DNA of 32,437 bases from positions 1 through 32,437 of the IMG/VR virus record IMGVR_UViG_3300025645_000268; one strand, 5' to 3'. The DNA is from a virus. Positions within the stretch are counted from its first letter, which is position 1. Every line of letters begins with the position of its first letter. The notes below the pieces were generated by a model. It was given only the letters and a program-made list of their open reading frames with translations, had not been told where the DNA came from and searched no databases. A program made the position numbers and the translations under genes. This document shows, piece by piece, positions 7,532-32,251 of the stretch.

Positions 7532-8872
7532 TTATCTTACGCCTGCCATGTCTCCGCCGAAGCTGTCGTTGTCGTTGTCCGAGGGAGCATTATCGCCAGA
7601 GGGAGCATTATCATTACCAATACCTAGTGCGTCTGCTACTGAGCTTATAGCATCACTGATGGATTGGCCCAAACCTTTACTTCCACTACTACTGTTAGTG
7701 CTGTCTGTACCAGGTCTCCCTTGAGGTCGGCCTGATGATGTAGGTGCTAGGCTGCCCGTTGCAGTATAGCTTTCCGTGTCACTGTCATATGACATGTTAT
7801 CTGGCGCTACACTCTCCATAGCAGCATTGAAGAAATCGTCACTTTTAAAGTTTTCACGAGACAGATCTACATTAGGGTCTGAGATAGTACTAAGGTCTAA
7901 GCCTAGCTTATCTGCTTGCTCATTTAGAGCAGACCTTTCTCTACTGTTCAAAGCCGTGATGCCTTTAACCGCTAGCGAACCTATTGGGCCAGCGAATAGT
8001 CCTGCAATCGTAGGAGCGGCTTTAGCACCTATGCTATTCGGGTCAAAGGTATTGCTAAAAGCCTCAGAAACTTGAGTAGCATCCATGTCACCAATAGAAA
8101 CGGACGGTCCACTACTCTCATTATCTCCGTAACCCTGATCAGCAAGCCCCCCGCCATCAGTCTCTTCCTTACCTACAGAGGTTTCGGTAGTTGTAGCTAC
8201 TGGATTAGTAGTGTACCCCTCAGAACGCAGTTTATCGTATAGGTCACCCTCCGCAGGTAAAGTCAAAGTCCTTGCTATACCTTCAGGAGAATACAACGTA
8301 ACAGTAGTACTCGTAGGGGCGGTAGATGCGTTAAGAATAGACTGACTCAAAAAACCACCACCAAAGGCAGGCCCCATTGCAGCAGTAAATTGAGGCTTAG
8401 TAGGATCAATACCATCGCCTGTACTTACGTCTACACCATCTGCCGCATACAAAACCTGACCGTCTTTGTTGTACCCTTCAGTATCAGCTGGGGGGACCAT
8501 GCCGCCTACTGCCATACTCATCTCTTGGAGCATCGCTAGTTCTTCTGGGGTCAGTGCGCCCTCAGCTTGGTTGTCCATAGTTTGATTTACTGGCTCACCA
8601 CCAATACGTCCATCTGTCTCCATTTGAGCCAGACCACGCTTAGCTTCATTACGTAGGTCTTCAAAGAACTTAACACCATAGTAGCGTGCTACATCAGCAG
8701 GTACAACGTACTCACCCTCACTCAACTGAGCAGGTATATCATCACGTACTTCTTCTGCCATAGAACCTGGAGGTACATCATTTCCGCTTACAGGGTCTAC
8801 TGTAGTACCGTCATCTGCTATACCGCCTTCTTGGAATAGCATCTCCATTTGTGTTGCTTCATTGGCTTCCAT
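7532..8872 (-). CDS. Internal/minor virion protein between portal and scaffold genes
   Basis: This 446-residue protein is acidic and of low complexity. Residues 37-81 hold a conserved block (SMAEEVRDDIPAQLSEGEYV then PADVARYYGVKFFEDLRNEA) that I recognise from many marine phages, where it occurs in proteins of unknown function in the head region. After that the sequence is disordered and rich in Gly, Ser, Asp and Thr. A hydrophobic, helical patch occurs at about 285-310 (APTIAGLFAGPIGSLAVKGI), which could contact membrane. The tail end is a Ser/Asn/Asp-rich run (SGDNAPSDNDNDSFGG). It overlaps the 66-residue gene by 14 bp. An ejected internal protein is plausible but unproven. Confidence 0.55.
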   Translation of the reverse strand: MEANEATQMEMLFQEGGIADDGTTVDPVSGNDVPPGSMAEEVRDDIPAQLSEGEYVVPADVARYYGVKFFEDLRNEAKRGLAQMETDGRIGGEPVNQTMDNQAEGALTPEELAMLQEMSMAVGGMVPPADTEGYNKDGQVLYAADGVDVSTGDGIDPTKPQFTAAMGPAFGGGFLSQSILNASTAPTSTTVTLYSPEGIARTLTLPAEGDLYDKLRSEGYTTNPVATTTETSVGKEETDGGGLADQGYGDNESSGPSVSIGDMDATQVSEAFSNTFDPNSIGAKAAPTIAGLFAGPIGSLAVKGITALNSRERSALNEQADKLGLDLSTISDPNVDLSRENFKSDDFFNAAMESVAPDNMSYDSDTESYTATGSLAPTSSGRPQGRPGTDSTNSSSGSKGLGQSISDAISSVADALGIGNDNAPSGDNAPSDNDNDSFGGDMAGVR

Positions 8873-19087: not shown

Positions 19088-19338
19088 CCGTACTCACGCT
19101 CCCTTTCAGGGTCTAACACTTCATTACGGGTCAAGTGACCCTCCAAGTACATAGCACGCTCCACATGATCAAGTGTGTACCACACACCAGTGTCATTATG
19201 AATAGCTGTACGTACATAAAACACGTCTGACTTAGGGATATGTACTTTACTCAACCTATGTGAGTCCTTAGCAGCTAAAGCTACATAAAACTCAGTCAAT
19301 ACATCTTCTGATGCGTATAGTTTTACTCGGTTTTTCAT
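19084..19338 (-). CDS. Hypothetical protein, first gene of the late arm
   Basis: This protein has 84 residues from the ATG at 19338; a TTG three codons upstream is also in frame. It begins MKNRVKLYASEDVLTEFYVA, then KSDVFYVRTAIHNDTGVWYT and LDHVERAMYLEGHLTRNEVL. The last block (VERAMYLEGxLxxNDV) is one I know from marine phage genomes, without function. It is the first gene read leftward from the central region, so late transcription would begin just upstream. Its stop overlaps the start of the holin candidate. Confidence 0.55.
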   Translation of the reverse strand: MKNRVKLYASEDVLTEFYVALAAKDSHRLSKVHIPKSDVFYVRTAIHNDTGVWYTLDHVERAMYLEGHLTRNEVLDPEREREYG

Positions 19339-19385
19339 GGGAGTCAAGTACTTTGTTACTACAAAATTGGATAGTTGTAAGTGTT

Positions 19386-19590
19386 ATAGTATAACTATGT
19401 AGCTCTAACTACCATAGATTACTTAATACAGGGGTATAACTACTTACTAATACAAGAGTACTGTAGTATAACTATAGAGTCAAGCTATTTTCTTAAGTTA
19501 TAACTACTATAGTTTAACTATATCTAAGTCTAACTACTTATTTAGCTTAACTACTTCTAAGTTTTAACAACTAATAGTTTAACTATACCC
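19386..19590. repeat. Phased TAACTA array (iteron-like), ~16/32-bp period
   Basis: The hexamer TAACTA occurs at 19392, 19406, 19437, 19469, 19501, 19515, 19531, 19548 and 19580. The spacings are 14, 31, 32, 32, 14, 16, 17 and 32 bp, so nearly all copies lie on a grid of about 16 bp (one and a half helix turns). Better units read TAACTACTTA(C/T)T(A/T)A. Several are flanked by ATAGT, giving dyads like ATAGTxTAACTAT. Such arrays are typical of initiator or repressor binding sites. The binding protein is unknown. Confidence 0.6.
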
Positions 19591-20229
19591 CCTTACCCCC
19601 TATAGTCCCCAGTTATACCCAAAAGAGGAGGGCTTGTCAAGCGAATAAAGATGCAGTCAGTCTAAAATAGTTTGGAAGTGTTGCACTATTCACACGAATA
19701 ACACAGGTTGTAGCCTACTAGCGTTACTTTATAACAGTCTGGCACAAAAAGGTATACGTATTAGCATGCCCATATAGCGATTTGAAAAACCCCGTGCGTG
19801 TAGGAGTACATATATAGGTAACGTAGGGGTGGGGGGTGGCCCATGCGCCCCCCTTATGCGCCTGCATGTGTGTATACCTAGGCATAATGCGAGGCTAATG
19901 CATTGAAAGTAAAGGCTTTCTATAGTCATTCGATATGTCAGGTAGGGGAATATCTATTGTTTTCACGGGGTTACAGGCGCGCGTGCAAGAGGCGGGCTTT
20001 TATGCATGTAAATACCCATATCCCCCTATGACGCTTGCACATAGGTACACCCCCACCCCGTCATGCACGATGCACGTCCATCCACGCTTAACGCTCATGC
20101 ATCCACGTCATGTCTGCACTTGGGCGCATCACACACACATCACACACATCACGCGAGGCAATGTTGCTAATTCGTTCCAATGGTTTGGGGTGATTCGTTT
20201 CGGCTCAATTCGGCTCTGATTTCTAGTCT

Positions 20230-20240
20230 CGGACCGTCCG
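20230..20240. promoter_or_regulatory. 11-bp dyad CGGACCGTCCG, copy 1
   Basis: This copy (CGGAC-C-GTCCG) lies 112 bp before the first early gene. It is followed by ACCCT-AA-AGGGT (20253-20264), a second small dyad, and by a TTGACA (20276-20281) that could be a -35 box, although no good -10 follows. Copies 2-5 occur only in the next 2.3 kb. Confidence 0.6.
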
Positions 20241-20352
20241 AAAGCAGGATCTACCCTAAAGGGTAAAATAAGTGTTTGACATGCTAATCGTTATCGGTCA
20301 ACTTAAATGAGCAAACGGCAATCATGCCACAAACCGAAAAAGGATCTACACC

Positions 20353-20892
20353 ATGTCAAATACAGCCATAGCACATCTCGACGCCACAATCACTCATGAC
20401 GGTAAAACACATACATTCAGCCAAGCATGTGATCATGTTGCTCACCTATTCGATAAGCGGGACGATATGGCAGAACTTGTTCTGTTGGAGACCCGTGCCA
20501 TTGGTGAATGGTTGCTTGTCCTCCGCTCTGTATACAAGTCTGACAAGCAATTCGGACAAGCCATCGCCGCCACCCCGTTGTCCAAGCGTAGTGCTCAGGA
20601 TCGTAATGATGCGATGTTTGTTGCGAATAATTGGGCCAAGGTACAAAAGCTTAACGCCAAGGGCGAACTGAATGCCCTCGGTGCATCTGCGGTTCGGAAA
20701 CGTCTCAAGAAAGCGGAAGCCGTAGGTAATACTTCTAAGGGCAAAGCCAAGCCTGAGACTGACGCCAAGCCTACCGATAAGGTAACACCTGAGGCAATGG
20801 CTAACGCTGTACTAGAGCAGCTAGCCAAGTCTGACATAAGCGTAGCTGATTTCCGCAAAGCGTTTAACGCTGCAGCCAAGGCAAGTGCCTAA
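20353..20892 (+). CDS. First early protein, unknown function
   Basis: This 179-residue protein follows a good ribosome site (AAAAAGGATCT). It is soluble and alternates helices; its mid part (AIGEWLLVLRSVYKSDKQFG) and a Lys/Ala-rich linker (AVRKRLKKAEAVGNTSKGKA) lead to a compact C-terminal helical block (PEAMANAVLEQLAKSDISVA). It uses more GCC/AAG codons than its neighbours. A UUCG-loop terminator follows at 20904, so it forms its own transcription unit. Being first out, it could be a regulator or a host-takeover protein; it might even bind the dyads. I do not recognise the family. Confidence 0.55.
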   Translation: MSNTAIAHLDATITHDGKTHTFSQACDHVAHLFDKRDDMAELVLLETRAIGEWLLVLRSVYKSDKQFGQAIAATPLSKRSAQDRNDAMFVANNWAKVQKLNAKGELNALGASAVRKRLKKAEAVGNTSKGKAKPETDAKPTDKVTPEAMANAVLEQLAKSDISVADFRKAFNAAAKASA

Positions 20893-20903
20893 GCCTAAGC
20901 GAG

Positions 20904-20921
20904 GCTCCCTTCGGGGAGCTT
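20904..20921 (+). terminator. UUCG-loop terminator after the first early gene
   Basis: The stem GCTCCC / GGGAGC closes a TTCG tetraloop (20910-20913), followed by TTCACTGTCTT. This is a stable rho-independent-type hairpin, with a weak T-tract. It lies 12 bp after the stop of the 179-residue gene and 15 bp before dyad copy 2. Confidence 0.6.
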
Positions 20922-20935
20922 CACTGTCTTACTTT

Positions 20936-20946
20936 CGGACCGTCCG
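20936..20946. promoter_or_regulatory. 11-bp dyad CGGACCGTCCG, copy 2
   Basis: The context is TTTCGGACCGTCCGTTAC. It is placed between the terminator and the next gene, 28 bp before its ATG (20975), and upstream of an AAAGGATA ribosome site. Confidence 0.65.
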
Positions 20947-20974
20947 TTACAAAGCTTCAAAGGATACACATATC

Positions 20975-21139
20975 ATGCCTAGACTTATGATCACACTGCT
21001 TGCCGTACTATGCTCCCTATCGTTCTCCATACTGACCGTCATAGCGTTTTCCATAGGCCTAGATCCGCTATCTGTAGGGCTGCTAGGTTTCATGGGCGTT
21101 GTATCTTTTGGCTTTGCATTAGTCACAGACGATACATGA
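20975..21139 (+). CDS. 54-aa two-TM membrane protein
   Basis: From ATG 20975 (AAAGGATA ribosome site 8 bp upstream) the frame gives 54 residues: MPRLMITLLAVLCSLSFSIL, TVIAFSIGLDPLSVG, LLGFMGVVSFGFALVTDD. Two hydrophobic helices with a short GLDP turn suggest a small inner-membrane protein. The frame stays open further upstream, but the ribosome site and the dyad point to 20975. Its TGA overlaps the next ATG (ATGA). The function is unknown; superinfection exclusion is one possibility for early membrane proteins. Confidence 0.55.
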   Translation: MPRLMITLLAVLCSLSFSILTVIAFSIGLDPLSVGLLGFMGVVSFGFALVTDDT

Positions 21140-21327
21140 GGTACATATGCAAGCGCCAGCGTATGAGATTACGCCCAGATAAATACCTGTGGTATCACGC
21201 ATCGCAATGGTTCAACCCTAAAAAATATGGTGTTGACAATCATTTTGCTATGGAGTCTCTTATATATACGCAAGAGATTGATGGTTCTACATTCGGACCG
21301 TCCGAAACTAAACCTAAGAAAGGATAA
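21136..21327 (+). CDS. 63-aa basic early protein ending across dyad copy 3
   Basis: It starts with the ATG that overlaps the previous stop. It encodes 63 residues: MRYICKRQRMRLRPDKYLWY, HASQWFNPKKYGVDNHFAME, and a tail, STFGPSETKPKKG. The tail is encoded by dyad copy 3 and the following ribosome site, so the C-terminus may be a by-product of the control element. It is strongly basic at both ends. I do not recognise it. Confidence 0.45.
   Translation: MRYICKRQRMRLRPDKYLWYHASQWFNPKKYGVDNHFAMESLIYTQEIDGSTFGPSETKPKKG
21294..21304. promoter_or_regulatory. 11-bp dyad CGGACCGTCCG, copy 3
   Basis: The context is ATTCGGACCGTCCGAAAC, a 15-bp imperfect dyad (TTCGGA-CCG-TCCGAA). It lies 27 bp before the ATG at 21332, with AAGAAAGGATAAGACG between, and inside the end of the 63-residue gene. 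Confidence 0.65.
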
Positions 21328-21331
21328 GACG

Positions 21332-21598
21332 ATGGAACGACATGCAAGTAACGCTTTCAACACACTCAAGAAGATGGGTGCACCTGTGTTTATACATGAA
21401 GGTGAGTCCTATTACTTTGTGATTAGCGCTGAAGAAAATTACGATACTGTATGGGCTGACTATTACGCTATGACTGATGGTTCCTATGGGGATCTGTGTG
21501 ACTTCGGCGTCAATGAAAGTATCAACAAAGTGCTGAACGATAATGGGCTGTTTTGTGAGTGGCAAAATCCCGGCGTGTTAGCCGTGTATGATGCGTAG
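21332..21598 (+). CDS. 88-aa early protein
   Basis: The start at 21332 follows a clear ribosome site (AAAGGATAAGACG). The protein has 88 residues: MERHASNAFNTLKKMGAPVF, then HEGESYYFVISAEENYDTVW and ADYYAMTDGSYGDLCDFGVN. It ends FCEWQNPGVLAVYDA. The mix of aromatic and acidic residues suggests a compact alpha/beta fold. It reminds me of small phage proteins with a WADYY core, but I know no function. It lies between dyad copies 3 and 4. Confidence 0.5.
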   Translation: MERHASNAFNTLKKMGAPVFIHEGESYYFVISAEENYDTVWADYYAMTDGSYGDLCDFGVNESINKVLNDNGLFCEWQNPGVLAVYDA

Positions 21599-21613
21599 CT
21601 AGAACTTTACCTT

Positions 21614-21624
21614 CGGACCGTCCG
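21614..21624. promoter_or_regulatory. 11-bp dyad CGGACCGTCCG, copy 4
   Basis: The context is CTTCGGACCGTCCGTAAC. It lies in the gap between two genes, 34 bp before the ATG at 21659, with an AGAGAGAG purine run between as ribosome site. Confidence 0.65.
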
Positions 21625-21658
21625 TAACTAACCCGACTAAATAGAGAGAGACTTCACA

Positions 21659-22276
21659 ATGTATCAACGTGACTGCAAAGAGATTACACAACACGCCATG
21701 TCTACACCCGAAGGGTTGTATGATGTGATAGAGTTCACCTTGTGCACTATCAACATGCCTTTATCCCGTGTCATACAGCAGCGTGTGTCCATCAAGGCTG
21801 AGGGCGTACAATCTAAATGGGTGTCAGGTACTAAGGCGCTGGGCATAGAGTACGCTAAGGCTAACGCCCAGCGCTTACATGCAGCGATAAATGAGATAGC
21901 TGACCTACATGGCAAGGATACTATTGATGGTGCGCAAGAGGCAGTGGATCTCTTTGTGTCTATACCTTCAATAGGTATGGTGAAGGCTGGGTTCATAGCA
22001 CAGATGTGTGGGTTCCAAGTTGCCTGCTTAGATAGGCATAACATCCGTATGCTTGGCTTGGCTGAGACAGCATTGGTTCTCAACAAGAAGGTTAAGCCTG
22101 ACCTGCGCCGCTCTAAGATACGCAGCTACGTTAAGCTGTGCCGCCGCCAAGGTTCAGAGTACTGGTGGAATACATGGTGTAACTATGTAGCTGAGAAGGG
22201 TGGCATGAATAAGTCATTGACTACTGGTGATGCTGTCTCTAAGTATCATGTAGCAGCAGTAATTATGGGAGAGTAA
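21659..22276 (+). CDS. HhH / DNA-glycosylase-like protein
   Basis: This 205-residue protein contains, near residues 99-130, FVSIPSIGMVKAGFIAQMCG followed by FQVACLDRHNIRMLGL. That resembles the helix-hairpin-helix turn (PxxGxxKAxF) plus the downstream Asp of endonuclease III / 8-oxoguanine glycosylase-type enzymes (LDxHNIRxLG). The catalytic Lys of bifunctional enzymes is not obvious. The C-terminal region is basic and aromatic (RRSKIRSYVKLCRRQGSEYW). It could repair or modify DNA, or only bind it. The similarity is my reading of motif and length; a specific family is not confirmed. Confidence 0.5.
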   Translation: MYQRDCKEITQHAMSTPEGLYDVIEFTLCTINMPLSRVIQQRVSIKAEGVQSKWVSGTKALGIEYAKANAQRLHAAINEIADLHGKDTIDGAQEAVDLFVSIPSIGMVKAGFIAQMCGFQVACLDRHNIRMLGLAETALVLNKKVKPDLRRSKIRSYVKLCRRQGSEYWWNTWCNYVAEKGGMNKSLTTGDAVSKYHVAAVIMGE

Positions 22277-22295
22277 CTATGAGGGCTTTATTAAT

Positions 22296-22598
22296 ATGAC
22301 ATCCAACCCACTAGACAAGACAGACGAAGACACACGTTACCTATGTGAGAACGTGAATGGCGAGTGGCACTTGATCACTGCTACCACTACACCGTACAGT
22401 GGTGAGTGTATGCTAGGTATACTTGAAAGCGCCTACCCTGTGTCATGGTTCGATCTAGTTACGGACCGTCCGAAGCTAAGACTAGACGAAGTTGACTACG
22501 AAACATTCTACGCTTATAGGTTAGAACTACTACGGCCTACCAAGCACACCCAAGCTAAGCTAATTGTAATTGATGGAGGTAAAGACTATGACAACTAA
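22296..22598 (+). CDS. 100-aa acidic early protein carrying dyad copy 5
   Basis: This 100-residue protein starts 19 bp after the previous stop. Its parts are MTSNPLDKTDEDTRYLCENV, GEWHLITATTTPYSGECMLG and ESAYPVSWFDLVTDRPKLRL. It ends acidic and overlaps the next gene by 11 bp. Codons for VTDRPK contain dyad copy 5. The function is unknown. GEWHLIT-like strands suggest a beta-barrel start. Confidence 0.5.
   Translation: MTSNPLDKTDEDTRYLCENVNGEWHLITATTTPYSGECMLGILESAYPVSWFDLVTDRPKLRLDEVDYETFYAYRLELLRPTKHTQAKLIVIDGGKDYDN
22462..22472. promoter_or_regulatory. 11-bp dyad CGGACCGTCCG, copy 5
   Basis: The context is TTACGGACCGTCCGAAGC. This copy lies inside a coding sequence, 116 bp before the next ATG (22588), unlike copies 2-4. 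It still keeps the full 11 bp, although other codons would serve the protein equally well. Confidence 0.55.
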
Positions 22599-22941
22599 GA
22601 ACCTACTAGGTAAGTCCCGCCCACAAGATAAACCGTATGCTATATTCAAAGGGCATGGCCCCTTCGGTGATACAGAGATGCGCTTACTCAAGACATACCA
22701 ACGACCAGACAAAGAGAAGACTAACAGGTATGCTCGTTGGTTCGTTGCCGTAAAGACAGACATGACGTATGGTTCCTTCGAGTTAGGTGACAGCTACATT
22801 GAGGAAGCTACCTATGGGTTGTCCTTGACATGGGCTGACCCCTTGTACAAAGAGCAGTACTGGGATAGTGAGTACACCCAAGTAGATACTAACACCTTCA
22901 CTCAAGAAGATGATAACCTATTGCAACAACTAGGATGGTAA
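22588..22941 (+). CDS. 117-aa early protein
   Basis: ATG 22588 follows GGAGGTAAAGACT, one of the strongest ribosome sites here; a second ATG at 22570 is less likely. The protein has 117 residues: MTTKNLLGKSRPQDKPYAIF, KGHGPFGDTEMRLLKTYQRP, RYARWFVAVKTDMTYGSFEL. The aromatic and charged mix, with WFVAVKTDMTYGSFELGD, reads as a beta-rich single domain. I recall similar proteins in T4-like and marine phages with no function. It overlaps the gene before by 11 bp. Confidence 0.55.
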   Translation: MTTKNLLGKSRPQDKPYAIFKGHGPFGDTEMRLLKTYQRPDKEKTNRYARWFVAVKTDMTYGSFELGDSYIEEATYGLSLTWADPLYKEQYWDSEYTQVDTNTFTQEDDNLLQQLGW

Positions 22942-25580: not shown

Positions 25581-25817
25581 ATGAAGACCCACATGATGAC
25601 TGGACTGCGCAACTTAGAAACCTACCTAGTCCGAGTGATAAAAGCACTGAACATCCTACTGAACGTGTTGCTGGGGGGTCACAGCCATCAGACAATCAGC
25701 GCAAGAAACCACCAAAGGAAGAGAGACGGTAAGTTAAACCTTGTGTTTCTTATTGACTTACTGTTCGGTAAAGGTCATACACTGCAAAGCTGGATAGCTT
25801 GGATAGAAAGGAGATGA
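25581..25817 (+). CDS. 78-aa protein with ARNHxRKRDGK motif
   Basis: This 78-residue protein contains a leucine-rich N-terminal half (LVRVIKALNILLNVLLGGHS) and the segment QTISARNHQRKRDGKLNLVF, then LIDLLFGKGHTLQSWIAWIE. The TxSARNxxRKRxGKxNLxxxIDxLFxxxHxxxSWxxW pattern is one I recognise from small phage proteins, so this frame is preferred over an overlapping one. It could be a membrane-associated protein. Its start (ATG 25581) is weakly supported. Its TGA precedes the recombinase start by 5 bp. Confidence 0.55.
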   Translation: MKTHMMTGLRNLETYLVRVIKALNILLNVLLGGHSHQTISARNHQRKRDGKLNLVFLIDLLFGKGHTLQSWIAWIERR

Positions 25818-25822
25818 CGCTC

Positions 25823-26749
25823 ATGCAAAAACACCACAAGGTAGACCTCAAGCCTACGACTAAGCTACGTAATGCCTGCGATCAGTACATGCGTAGCAGT
25901 ACGTATGCTCGACTGACCAGTGCAGTACAAGCTAAGTACGCTAGAACTCTACTGCGTGTGTGTGGTACTAAGGTACAGAATGCTGCTGAGTTAGGTAACA
26001 TGAGGCTGGCTGACATTAGGTACAAACATGTAACGTATGCCTATGACAGTTGGGCTGATAGTAACGGCCCCTCTGCTGCTAACTACATGGCTACATGCCT
26101 AAGCATTGTGCTTAACACCGCCATACGATACGAGGCTATCTCTGCTAACCCGGTTTCACTGCTACGCCGTAAGGTAGAGAAACCTCGCAGAGTTAAGTGG
26201 TCAAAGGATGACGTATCGTCATTCCTTACTACGGCCTATTCTGAGTGGAGGTGGCGTAGCATAGGGTTGATACTGCACATGGCCTATGAATGGGGTCAAC
26301 GTATAGGTGACATGCGCTTACTCAAGTGGGATGACATTGACTTTGACGCCCAGCGCGTTGACATCACACAGTCTAAGCGTGGCGCTGAGGTACACCTACC
26401 TGTACCTGACGACCTGTTAGCTATGCTTGAGGCACAGCGTGTAGACTTTGGCTTCCAAGAGTACGTAGCGCCACGTGTCAAGCCTAACCATAGTGGGTAC
26501 AGTCCTTACTCTGCCATTGAGATACACACACAGGTGAACAACATCAAAGCTAAGGCGGAACTAGACCCTAAGCTACAAGCCAGAGACCTGCGCCGTACTG
26601 CTATCACTGAGATGGCTGAGGCAGGGGTTGACCTTGTAGGTATCATGCAGGTTAGTGGACACCAGAACCCTAACAGTGTTACGCCTTACCTAGTCAATAC
26701 ATACAGTGGCGCATCAGCTGCACTATCAAAGAGGAGGGGAGATGAATGA
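25823..26749 (+). CDS. Tyrosine recombinase / integrase
   Basis: From ATG 25823 (AAAGGAG 9 bp upstream) the protein has 308 residues. It has an N-terminal SAM-like DNA-binding domain (STYARLTSAVQAKYARTLLR) and a catalytic domain. The catalytic domain has R160 (GQRIGDMRLLKW), K185 (QSKRGAEV), the RDLR box at 254-257 (normally HxxR), H280 (VSGHQNP) and the nucleophile Tyr at 289 or 294 (TPYLVNTYS). It would cut and join DNA at specific sites, for integration or for resolving replication products. No repressor or excisionase gene is visible here. Its stop overlaps the primase start. Confidence 0.8.
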   Translation: MQKHHKVDLKPTTKLRNACDQYMRSSTYARLTSAVQAKYARTLLRVCGTKVQNAAELGNMRLADIRYKHVTYAYDSWADSNGPSAANYMATCLSIVLNTAIRYEAISANPVSLLRRKVEKPRRVKWSKDDVSSFLTTAYSEWRWRSIGLILHMAYEWGQRIGDMRLLKWDDIDFDAQRVDITQSKRGAEVHLPVPDDLLAMLEAQRVDFGFQEYVAPRVKPNHSGYSPYSAIEIHTQVNNIKAKAELDPKLQARDLRRTAITEMAEAGVDLVGIMQVSGHQNPNSVTPYLVNTYSGASAALSKRRGDE

Positions 26750-28482: not shown

Positions 28483-28721
28483 TTAAATACACAGTAGAAG
28501 TATACGCCAATGGCACTAAGCAGTGGTTTCTTAACGGTAAGCGTCACCGTGAGGATGGTCCTGCGGTTGAATGGGCTGATGGGGATAAGGAGTGGTTTCT
28601 TGACGGTAAGCGTCTGACAGAACAAGAGCATAGGAAAGCCACAACTAAGTCTACCTGTGATGGCAAAGAAGTCGAGATTGATGGTGTTGTTTATGTCTTG
28701 ATGGAGAAACAAAATGATTGA
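28479..28721 (+). CDS. WYLNGK-repeat protein A (2 repeats)
   Basis: This is the first of three tandem paralogues, 80 residues. After MIKYTVEVYANGTKQWFLNG, the unit KRHREDGPAVEWADGDKEWF is followed by LDGKRLTEQEHRKATTKS and a C-terminal cap (CDGKEVEIDGVVYVL) shared by all three. The unit (about 23 residues, W(Y/F)LNGKxHREDGPAxExxxG) is MORN-like: short beta-hairpins that stack. The function in phages is unknown. A GGAGAAACAGG ribosome site overlaps the previous gene. Confidence 0.7.
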   Translation: MIKYTVEVYANGTKQWFLNGKRHREDGPAVEWADGDKEWFLDGKRLTEQEHRKATTKSTCDGKEVEIDGVVYVLMEKQND

Positions 28722-29163
28722 ATACACAGTAAAAGTCTACGCCAATGGCACTAAGTTTTGGTACCTAAATGGTAAGCGTCACCGTGAGGATGGTCCAGCT
28801 ATTGAATACACTGATGGCTCTAAGCTTTGGTACCTAAATGGTAAGTGTCACCGTGAGGATGGTCCAGCTATTGAATACACTGATGGCAATAAGTATTGGT
28901 ACCTAAATGGTAAGTGTCACCGTGAAGATGGTCCAGCTATTGAGGGGTCTGATGGTAGTAAGTCTTGGTACCTAAATGGTAAGCGTCACCGTGAAGATGG
29001 CCCGGCTGTTGAGTGGGCTAATGGCGATAAGTATTGGTATCTAAACAACAAGGGAATACCAGAACAAGAGCACAAGCTGGCTACTACTAAGGCTACCTGT
29101 GCTGGTAAAGAAGTCGTAATTGAGGGTGTTACTTATATATTGAAGGAAAAGAACAATGACTGA
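28714..29163 (+). CDS. WYLNGK-repeat protein B (5 repeats)
   Basis: This 149-residue paralogue has five units whose Trp codons begin at 28759, 28828, 28897, 28966 and 29035, exactly 69 bp (23 residues) apart. The units are nearly identical at DNA level in their first half (TGGTACCTAAATGGTAAG), showing recent expansion. The first four carry HREDGPA; the last changes to NNKGIPEQEH and leads to the common cap (CAGKEVVIEGVTYIL). Cys replaces Arg in two units (KCHRED). It overlaps protein A by 8 bp and protein C by 8 bp. Confidence 0.7.
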   Translation: MIEYTVKVYANGTKFWYLNGKRHREDGPAIEYTDGSKLWYLNGKCHREDGPAIEYTDGNKYWYLNGKCHREDGPAIEGSDGSKSWYLNGKRHREDGPAVEWANGDKYWYLNNKGIPEQEHKLATTKATCAGKEVVIEGVTYILKEKNND

Positions 29164-29485
29164 TAAAATGATTGAATACACAGTAAGGGTCTGCGCTAAT
29201 GGCGATAAGATTTGGTACCTAAATGATAAGCGTCACTGTGAAGATGGTCCTGCGATTGAGTTCGCTAATGGAGATAAGCTTTGGTACCTAAACGATAAGC
29301 TTCACCGTGAGGATGGCCCAGCTTGTGAGTGGGCTGATGGCTCTAAGCATTGGTACCTAAATGGTAAGTCTCTAACAGAACAAGAGCATAGGAAGGCCAC
29401 AACTAAGGCTACCTGTGATGGTAAAGAAGTCGAGATCGATGGCGTGACTTATGTCTTGAAGGAGAAAGGACAAGACGATGAGTGA
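29156..29485 (+). CDS. WYLNGK-repeat protein C (3 repeats)
   Basis: This 109-residue third paralogue has three units: ANGDKIWYLNDKRHCEDGPA, ANGDKLWYLNDKLHREDGPA, ADGSKHWYLNGKSLTEQEH, then the cap CDGKEVEIDGVTYVL. The cap DNA is almost identical to that of protein A, while the first repeats differ, which fits gene conversion or shuffling. ATG 29156 is used here; ATG 29168 gives a version starting MIEYTVRV as in A and B. The function is unknown. Confidence 0.68.
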   Translation: MTDKMIEYTVRVCANGDKIWYLNDKRHCEDGPAIEFANGDKLWYLNDKLHREDGPACEWADGSKHWYLNGKSLTEQEHRKATTKATCDGKEVEIDGVTYVLKEKGQDDE

Positions 29486-31561: not shown

Positions 31562-31689
31562 CCCAAGCTGAACAATCTACTATAGAGGAGACCTTGAGTG
31601 TGTGCGCTGACGTATCTGCACATGAAGTGGTCCAACTAATCTTAATGCGGCAGACAGAATTGGAGCAAGAGCCTGAGTATGAACAGTGA
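31558..31689 (+). CDS. 43-aa acidic peptide before the sigma factor
   Basis: ATG 31558 to TGA 31689 encodes 43 residues: MTQAEQSTIEETLSVCADVS, AHEVVQLILMRQTELEQEPE, YEQ. Acidic and helical. It overlaps the sigma-factor gene by 11 bp in another frame, so it may couple its translation; an anti-sigma role could be imagined but there is no evidence. Confidence 0.5.
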   Translation: MTQAEQSTIEETLSVCADVSAHEVVQLILMRQTELEQEPEYEQ

Positions 31690-32251
31690 ACAGATAGTTG
31701 GTATGTGTGAGAAACTGGCGTACAAGTACAACAGTGAGACGCACAGGAGCGACCTTCAGATGGAGGGTGTGTTGGTTTGCTACGAGATACTAGCAAAGGA
31801 ACCTGATGCCCATCCAGCGAAGCTCTACAGGGAGGCTAAGAGACGTATGCACGACTACTTGAACATCGACACACAACCTGTCGCTATACCTAAGCACAGT
31901 CGATCACGTAGGCTTACCCGTAACATCAACGATGATGATGCAGGGGATATGTCTAAAGAGGGGTACGACTGGCTAAAGGCTGTCCTTGGTAGCTCTGACG
32001 TACCTTACGACGAAGACTTTGGCATTAGTGACAAGGATCATGTCGTGGAATACGAAAGGAAGGAGTACGGTAATCACATCAGAAGTGTTGTAATTGAGGC
32101 ACTATCACCAACTGAATTGTGTATTGTCAGACTGAGGTATTACGAGGATATGACACAAGATGAAGCTGGTGAAGTTCTAGGGACCAACAAGATGTGGGTG
32201 TCACGACATGAAAAAGCAGCACTAAAGAAGCTAGAACGTGCGTTGCTGTAA
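31679..32251 (+). CDS. Sigma-70-like RNA polymerase sigma factor
   Basis: This 190-residue protein has an N-terminal region-2-like helix set (MCEKLAYKYNSETHRSDLQM, then EGVLVCYEILAK) and an acidic linker. The C-terminal 50 residues are a clear region 4: LSPTELCIVRLRYYEDMTQD, EAGEVLGTNKMWVSRHEKAA, LKKLERAL, with its helix-turn-helix (TQDEAGEVLGTNKMWVSRHE). It would bind host core RNA polymerase and direct it to phage promoters, most likely those of the late arm. Its gene is the last of the early block here. A group-4/ECF-like factor or phage late sigma is likely. Confidence 0.7.
   Translation: MNSEQIVGMCEKLAYKYNSETHRSDLQMEGVLVCYEILAKEPDAHPAKLYREAKRRMHDYLNIDTQPVAIPKHSRSRRLTRNINDDDAGDMSKEGYDWLKAVLGSSDVPYDEDFGISDKDHVVEYERKEYGNHIRSVVIEALSPTELCIVRLRYYEDMTQDEAGEVLGTNKMWVSRHEKAALKKLERALL

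Follow-up and report, generated by a model that had tools for sequence, protein, structure and literature searches.

The stretch of DNA considered here (the window) is the whole of the IMG/VR virus record IMGVR_UViG_3300025645_000268, 32,437 bp in length, so that a search of the window is also a search of the record. Judged by the content and order of its genes (TerL, portal, coat, methylase, integrase, primase and ThyX), it belongs to a phage of the HMO-2011 type, and its terminase, portal and coat proteins are 77–81% identical to those of the Roseobacter phages CRP-207 and CRP-2. The structural genes run leftward and the early genes rightward, and the elements discussed here begin where the rightward block starts. 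These are a short sequence with dyad symmetry, CGGACCGTCCG, repeated five times in and around the first early genes, and a gene for a 179-residue protein (gene 1, 20353–20892, plus strand), which is the first gene after the first repeat and the candidate for a regulator that binds these sites. The plus strand goes on to carry genes for a methylase, a tyrosine integrase (25799–26749), a primase and ThyX, and early genes too are shared with HMO-2011-type phages.

A preliminary description of this DNA had listed five exact copies of the 11-mer, starting at 20230, 20936, 21294, 21614 and 22462, and the search of all 32,437 bp bears this out: there are no other exact copies, the five span 2.2 kb (20230–22472), and one copy with a single mismatch lies at 8101. 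When up to one mismatch is allowed the total found is six, as against a mean of 0.32 in shuffled sequences, none of 100 shuffles reaching six, while the most repeated dyad with 5-bp arms occurs five times, compared with a maximum of three in 60 Markov-1 simulations of the same composition. The 11-mer contains CGGACCG, a form of the recognition sequence CGGWCCG of RsrII; recognition by RsrII was rejected as the reason for the repeats, because sites with a central A lack CGGWCCG. Searching the literature for the 11-mer yielded nothing but a paper on a plant retrotransposon, and the single matches over 16 positions that several unrelated viral contigs contain look like chance, about ten being expected on a rough estimate from the size of the collection.

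Each copy forms the core of a 23-bp candidate operator on the plus strand. Site 1 (20224–20246, core 20230–20240) lies upstream of gene 1, whereas the next three each precede a start codon: site 2 (20930–20952, core 20936–20946) the ATG at 20975, site 3 (21288–21310, core 21294–21304) the ATG at 21332, and site 4 (21608–21630, core 21614–21624) the ATG at 21659, the distances from core to ATG being 28, 27 and 34 bases respectively, just as had been described. Site 5 (22456–22478, core 22462–22472) lies inside a gene for a 100-residue protein (22296–22598). The statement that two copies are embedded in coding sequence is clearly right for this last one, since the gene is conserved, but less so for the copy at 21294, which falls in the tail of a less certain open reading frame. 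Over 13 homologs of the 100-residue protein the codons of the site 5 core are nearly invariant, whereas codons elsewhere in that gene vary; within the core a single kind of synonymous change is seen, GAC/GAT, which matches the C/T tolerated at position −1 in other sites.

Homologs of gene 1 were found by profile search at 34 loci in IMG/VR, 33–96% identical, and the sites accompany them. A core site lies 116–195 bp upstream of gene 1 at every one of the 33 loci that extend to its 5' end; where enough sequence is available there are between three and six sites within about 3.5 kb, and close relatives keep the same core at the same places. It had been envisaged that the copies might turn out to be spread evenly through the genome, or not to be conserved in relatives. 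Neither is the case: the sites are conserved, and three near-complete genomes of 57–59 kb hold exactly five sites each, all in a single cluster of 3.2–3.6 kb in the early region. In clade A2 one extra exact site occurs roughly 17–18 kb downstream of the last early site (L014:1528–1550 = G008:43845; G006:27517). CRP-207 and CRP-2 have neither gene 1 nor repeated sites, despite the closeness of their structural genes to those of the window; CRP-207 gp01, CRP-603 gp01 and CRP-2 gp02 were compared as possible homologs of gene 1 and rejected.

These relatives also clarify the anatomy of the leader. Between site 1 and gene 1 there is firstly an inverted repeat with an A-rich tract, ACCCTAAAGGGT (20253–20264, which may also be read as CCCTAAAGGG); this is present in most leaders, some having arms that are changed yet still paired (CCCTTTAGGG, ATCCTTCGGAT) and that differ between clades. 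It is followed by TTGACA (20276–20281, plus strand), the putative −35 element of a gene 1 promoter whose −10 element is uncertain (approximately 20300–20308). TTGACA is invariant in all 15 of the aligned leaders, which represent five clades, and in window-type leaders the centre of site 1 lies 38–48 bp upstream of it. Gene 1 is followed by a hairpin resembling an intrinsic terminator (20901–20922, plus strand). That a terminator precedes the copy at 20936, as previously proposed, is well supported by the relatives, where a hairpin with a T-rich tail stands between gene 1 and the following site in 18 of 19 loci checked, but less so by the window phage itself, where the T-run is weak. The architecture common to the five clades is therefore a site, a promoter-like TTGACA, gene 1, a terminator, and then sites at the early genes.

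As to the sites themselves, 98 distinct examples from the gene 1 loci define a conserved unit consisting of TA, three variable positions, T, CGGA(C/T) N (G/A)TCCG, A, three variable positions and TA, the 11-mer of the window being the core of the 23-bp dyad TANNNTCGGACNGTCCGANNNTA. This is an odd, roughly symmetric dyad, with TA at −11/−10 and +10/+11 and T/A at −6/+6. The observation that C always occupies the centre holds within the window but does not extend to relatives, where the central base is C in 53 sites and G in 38, with few exceptions (A in five, T in two). The flanks vary by clade, copies within one genome mostly following the type of their clade (TA..TA or AT..AT ends); thus in clade A2 the unit approaches a perfect 25-bp palindrome, CTATCTTCGGACCGTCCGAAGATAG, while most members of clade D, L128 not among them, predominantly have AT in place of the outer TA in each arm. 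Polarity equals the clade consensus in 84 of the 98 sites, including all 26 of those in clade D. For downstream sites of the window type, a start codon with a Shine-Dalgarno (SD) sequence lies within 60 nt in 70 of 77 cases, compared with 45% of random positions; mostly the interval is 10–43 nt, often with the site right before the SD sequence, and some sites are inside genes.

Evidence of a rather different kind comes from cultured phages. Isolates were scanned blindly for repeated dyads, and the gene 1 profile was run over all open frames (six-frame) of seven of them. The dyads that emerged were, for CRP-345 (six copies) and CRP-1 (five), GTCCA-ANNT-TGGAC and, for HMO-2011, GTCCG-N4-CGGAC (five copies, one of them reversed), mainly located in the same early region, around the gp74 and gp01 genes; simulations reached five copies of a dyad in one case out of 60 for HMO-2011 and in none out of 60 for each of CRP-1 and CRP-345. 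The profile search placed HMO-2011 gp74 at the top (E 1e-6), followed by CRP-1 gp01 (E 0.23, non-significant if taken alone), and in profile–profile comparisons with gene 1 the values were E 1.2e-6 for gp74, E 2.4e-5 for the CRP-1 family and E 3e-8 for both combined. In HMO-2011 it is gp74, and not gp01, that is the homolog, a remote one like the gp01 of CRP-1 and CRP-345; each of them occupies the same position as gene 1, opening the rightward early block as its first gene of appreciable size. Dyads recur among 26 IMG/VR relatives of CRP-1 gp01, with up to nine per locus, and downstream sites of the CRP-1 type have an SD-bearing start codon within 60 nt in 34 of 48 cases (37% for random positions). 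Half-sites of the form GTCC(A/G) occur in both families, facing inward in HMO-2011 and CRP-1 and outward in the window type.

Two loci of the CRP-1 type (L145 and L166) have GTCCG..CGGAC rather than GTCCA..TGGAC in all of their copies, and at the position of CRP-1 residue 113 their proteins share Ser, as against Thr in the other aligned members. The helix concerned is the approximate counterpart of the conserved SA(V/I)RKR helix in gene 1. With numbers so small, this apparent pairing of Thr113 or Ser with an A or G half-site is put forward as something to be tested and not as a finding. The comparisons indicate that the same module of protein plus sites, with a site sequence specific to each lineage, recurs across the abundant HMO-2011-type phages, cultured ones included.

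The leaders of these isolates have other features. CRP-1, CRP-345 and HMO-2011 share, after site 1 and ahead of the first early gene, a conserved noncoding element of about 80 nt, GAGTTT...ACTTCG-hairpin-TGCA...GAAACGGCANGCGCAGAGGAT (L136:45790–45960, L135:46470–46640, L137:46860–47060), which looks like a structured RNA, the arms of its hairpin changing together; no match to it reached E 1 except for a chance snoRNA. CRP-603 and CRP-9, in which gene 1 was not detected, carry other dense leader repeats, respectively four copies of TGTGATCACA (L138, 54104–54222) and four of GTTTA-N4-TAAAC (L139, 55448–55548), and these are perhaps operators of a replacement regulator.

Because gene and sites are both co-inherited and co-varying, the gene 1 product is, with high probability, the protein that binds the dyads; the original suggestions were a regulon of a DNA-binding protein from either phage or host, or else a repeated promoter or leader element, and of these the phage-encoded protein, with the 179-residue product as candidate, is thereby favoured, since gene and sites are inherited, lost and varied together. 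The same comparison bears on the idea that the sites belong to a host regulator and that gene 1 is merely their neighbour. Host proteins can certainly bind phage repeats, but the type of site tracks the type of gene 1, and CRP-1 and CRP-2 share the host FZCC0023, only CRP-1 having gp01 and the dyad; an explanation of this kind seems most improbable.

Gene 1 gave no match in Pfam, PHROG or NCBIfam. AlphaFold models (predicted local distance difference test scores of 78 and 74, a larger alignment for the second model giving no improvement) have a beta-hairpin, a helical core and a C-terminal helical pair, and a Foldseek search of the Protein Data Bank with the gene 1 model found nothing significant. 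The top match in BFVD, S4S2E1, has no name there and is of 205 residues, the length of HMO-2011 gp74; no relatives of gene 1 were found in bacterial genomes, and so no prophage example. Among the leading structural matches, just one is clearly a protein that binds DNA in a sequence-specific manner: the DNA-binding domain of ParB on parS (6s6h). The two models match it weakly, with Z of 3.9 and of 5.2 (root-mean-square deviation 3.5 over 92 residues), below the level that is notable for helical proteins. This weak likeness, taken with the presence of several dispersed dyads, raises the question of whether these might be partition sites resembling parS, or sites of a replication origin, serving stable maintenance of the phage genome. 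Here, though, the protein is too short to include the CTP-binding domain of ParB and has no ParB family match (KorB of R751, tried as a relative, was rejected at E 0.25, with no profile similarity), while the sites track gene starts and the presence of an integrase leaves no evident need for plasmid partition, making such a role very unlikely.

The reading preferred here, at a probability of roughly 0.6, is that gene 1 encodes a repressor that controls its own expression and works through several operators, mostly in one orientation, within the early operon, where it would also act as a roadblock. Gene 1 would be made first, as a short terminated message, and its helical product would recognise the 23-bp dyad. 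At site 1, upstream of its own promoter, the protein would adjust its own leader by control of initiation, while at the downstream sites, which lie past the gene 1 terminator and mostly front the ribosome-binding sites of early genes, it would roadblock early transcription. The outcome would be a shut-off of early genes and perhaps, given the integrases of these phages, lysogenic silencing and superinfection immunity as well. An integrase is present in 11 of 13 related records, a cI-like HTH_3 protein was matched in none of 13, and CRP-3, from the HMO-2011-type group, has been reported to integrate (PMC9038755); the integrases and the absence of cI-like HTH_3 proteins would be compatible with a role in lysogeny.

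There are caveats to set against a repressor. Site 1 lies upstream of the promoter (by about 170 bp in HMO-2011) rather than over it, a position that is atypical of a simple repressor and would suit an activator equally; a scan for the sigma-70 consensus called no promoter at TTGACA, and there is no clear −10 element. Expression from the early leader is as compatible with a Cro-like or middle regulator as with an immunity repressor. The resemblance to the ParB fold is weak, an unrelated helical protein ranks first in the structural comparison, and sequence searches of solved structures with gene 1 gave no solved relative. As the core belonged to the search pattern its invariance is partly imposed, which is not so for the flanks or for the change shared by both arms; in addition, sites in one genome and across relatives are non-independent observations, and metagenomic records may be incomplete. 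Finally, the evidence is all comparative: sites, architecture and the co-inheritance and co-variation of gene and sites come from sequence, and it is from these that binding, repression, elongation block and immunity are inferred.

The location of site 1, upstream of the −35 element, makes activation or antitermination the main rival, whereby gene 1 protein at site 1 would recruit polymerase and the downstream sites would aid readthrough of the terminator or serve as middle promoters. The spacing between the centre of site 1 and the invariant TTGACA and the position of the terminator, dividing gene 1 from the next genes and followed by a site, are both in its favour. However, downstream sites often abut the SD sequence (e.g. 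TAGTGTCGGACGGTCCGACAGTAGGAGAATCGCAATG), leaving no space for a −10 element, most of them have no preceding terminator, and some are inside genes, so that on balance this alternative is judged unlikely.

It is also conceivable that the regulon operates on RNA, the dyads forming mRNA hairpins beside SD sequences that would be bound by the gene 1 protein or by a nuclease so as to control translation or processing. Their tight placement before start codons and mostly single polarity would fit, as would the strand asymmetry by which T is much commoner at −1 (28) than A is at +1 (6). Compensatory change expected of such hairpins shows no clear overall excess, however: flank pairing is 0.684 as against 0.669 in within-clade shuffles (63/1000), falling below the shuffles in clades A1, A2 and C and exceeding them in clades B and D, which sub-clade structure can explain. 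Moreover, the pair at ±6 is not A-T in about 20 of the 98 sites, two of the window sites fold to just 4 bp (−2.9 kcal/mol), and Rfam gave no match over 19300–22700. The reversed copy in HMO-2011 does not fit, and since site 1 precedes the likely promoter while other sites, such as site 5, are mid-gene, binding to DNA is favoured; regulation at the level of RNA appears improbable.

For an autoregulated repressor, the closest known parallel lies in the stoperators of cluster A mycobacteriophages (PMC9283540, PMC6550527). Repressors of the L5 type bind sites in promoters and short intergenic spaces that are oriented with transcription and co-vary with the protein (PMC9283540, PMC6550527). Points in common are a small protein (the L5 repressor has 183 residues), a motif that co-varies with it, a site close to its leader, phages that here are putatively temperate, several sites in short early-region intergenic spaces and, in the window type, their orientation, although one of the five in HMO-2011 is reversed. 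Stoperators (those of L5 gp71 and of the TipsytheTRex repressor) are, however, asymmetric, 13–14 bp long, bound by monomers and present in 20–30 copies per genome (PMC9283540, PMC6550527), whereas the present sites are dyads of 23 bp (or 14 bp), in some 3–9 copies clustered within a few kb, and the gene 1 protein has no detected similarity to any annotated repressor in PHROG, Pfam or NCBIfam. Because stoperators lack dyad symmetry and are monomer-bound, the gene 1 system is not placed in the L5 family. KorB of IncP plasmids (PMC11790492) is similarly a global repressor with several dispersed operators (OB) and a DNA-binding domain of the ParB type, which gene 1 weakly resembles, but gene 1, at 179 residues and with a short N-terminal beta-hairpin/helix, has no CTPase domain, and no KorA or IncC partner was seen. 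Lambda-type CI and Cro share dyad operators and a phage-encoded regulator at the early region; they differ in that HTH_3 proteins are missing from the 13 related records and in that the sites here are spread over several genes rather than tripled at promoters.

Elsewhere in the window, a 190-residue protein encoded at 31679–32251 contains sigma-70 region 4 and is a possible phage sigma-like regulator, while 28714–29485 is a tandem protein repeat of 69-bp period encoding (W/Y)YLNGKRHREDGPA(I/V)E. The noncoding region between the divergent gene blocks (19370–19600) is AT-rich, with repeated TATAGTT/TAACTA motifs that include dyads of TAGTTTAACTA, and these TAGTTTAACTA repeats are also found in L006–L008.

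The main comparative paper on HMO-2011-type phages mentions no repressor or promoter (PMC9038755). For this dominant marine group there is now a candidate regulator gene with cognate sites, and natural co-variation between them, in the cultured HMO-2011, CRP-1 and CRP-345, so that the timing of early genes and immunity according to operator type become testable. The logic would be stoperator-like, outside the actinobacteriophages and by way of an unrelated protein. Tentatively, these proteins may even form a new family of regulators in phages, with no relationship to the known repressors, that shuts down early operons by way of dyads, mostly oriented, situated at ribosome-binding sites, whether by a roadblock on DNA or through the RNA copy. 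If true, paired protein–operator switches would define immunity groups within one of the ocean's most abundant groups of phages.

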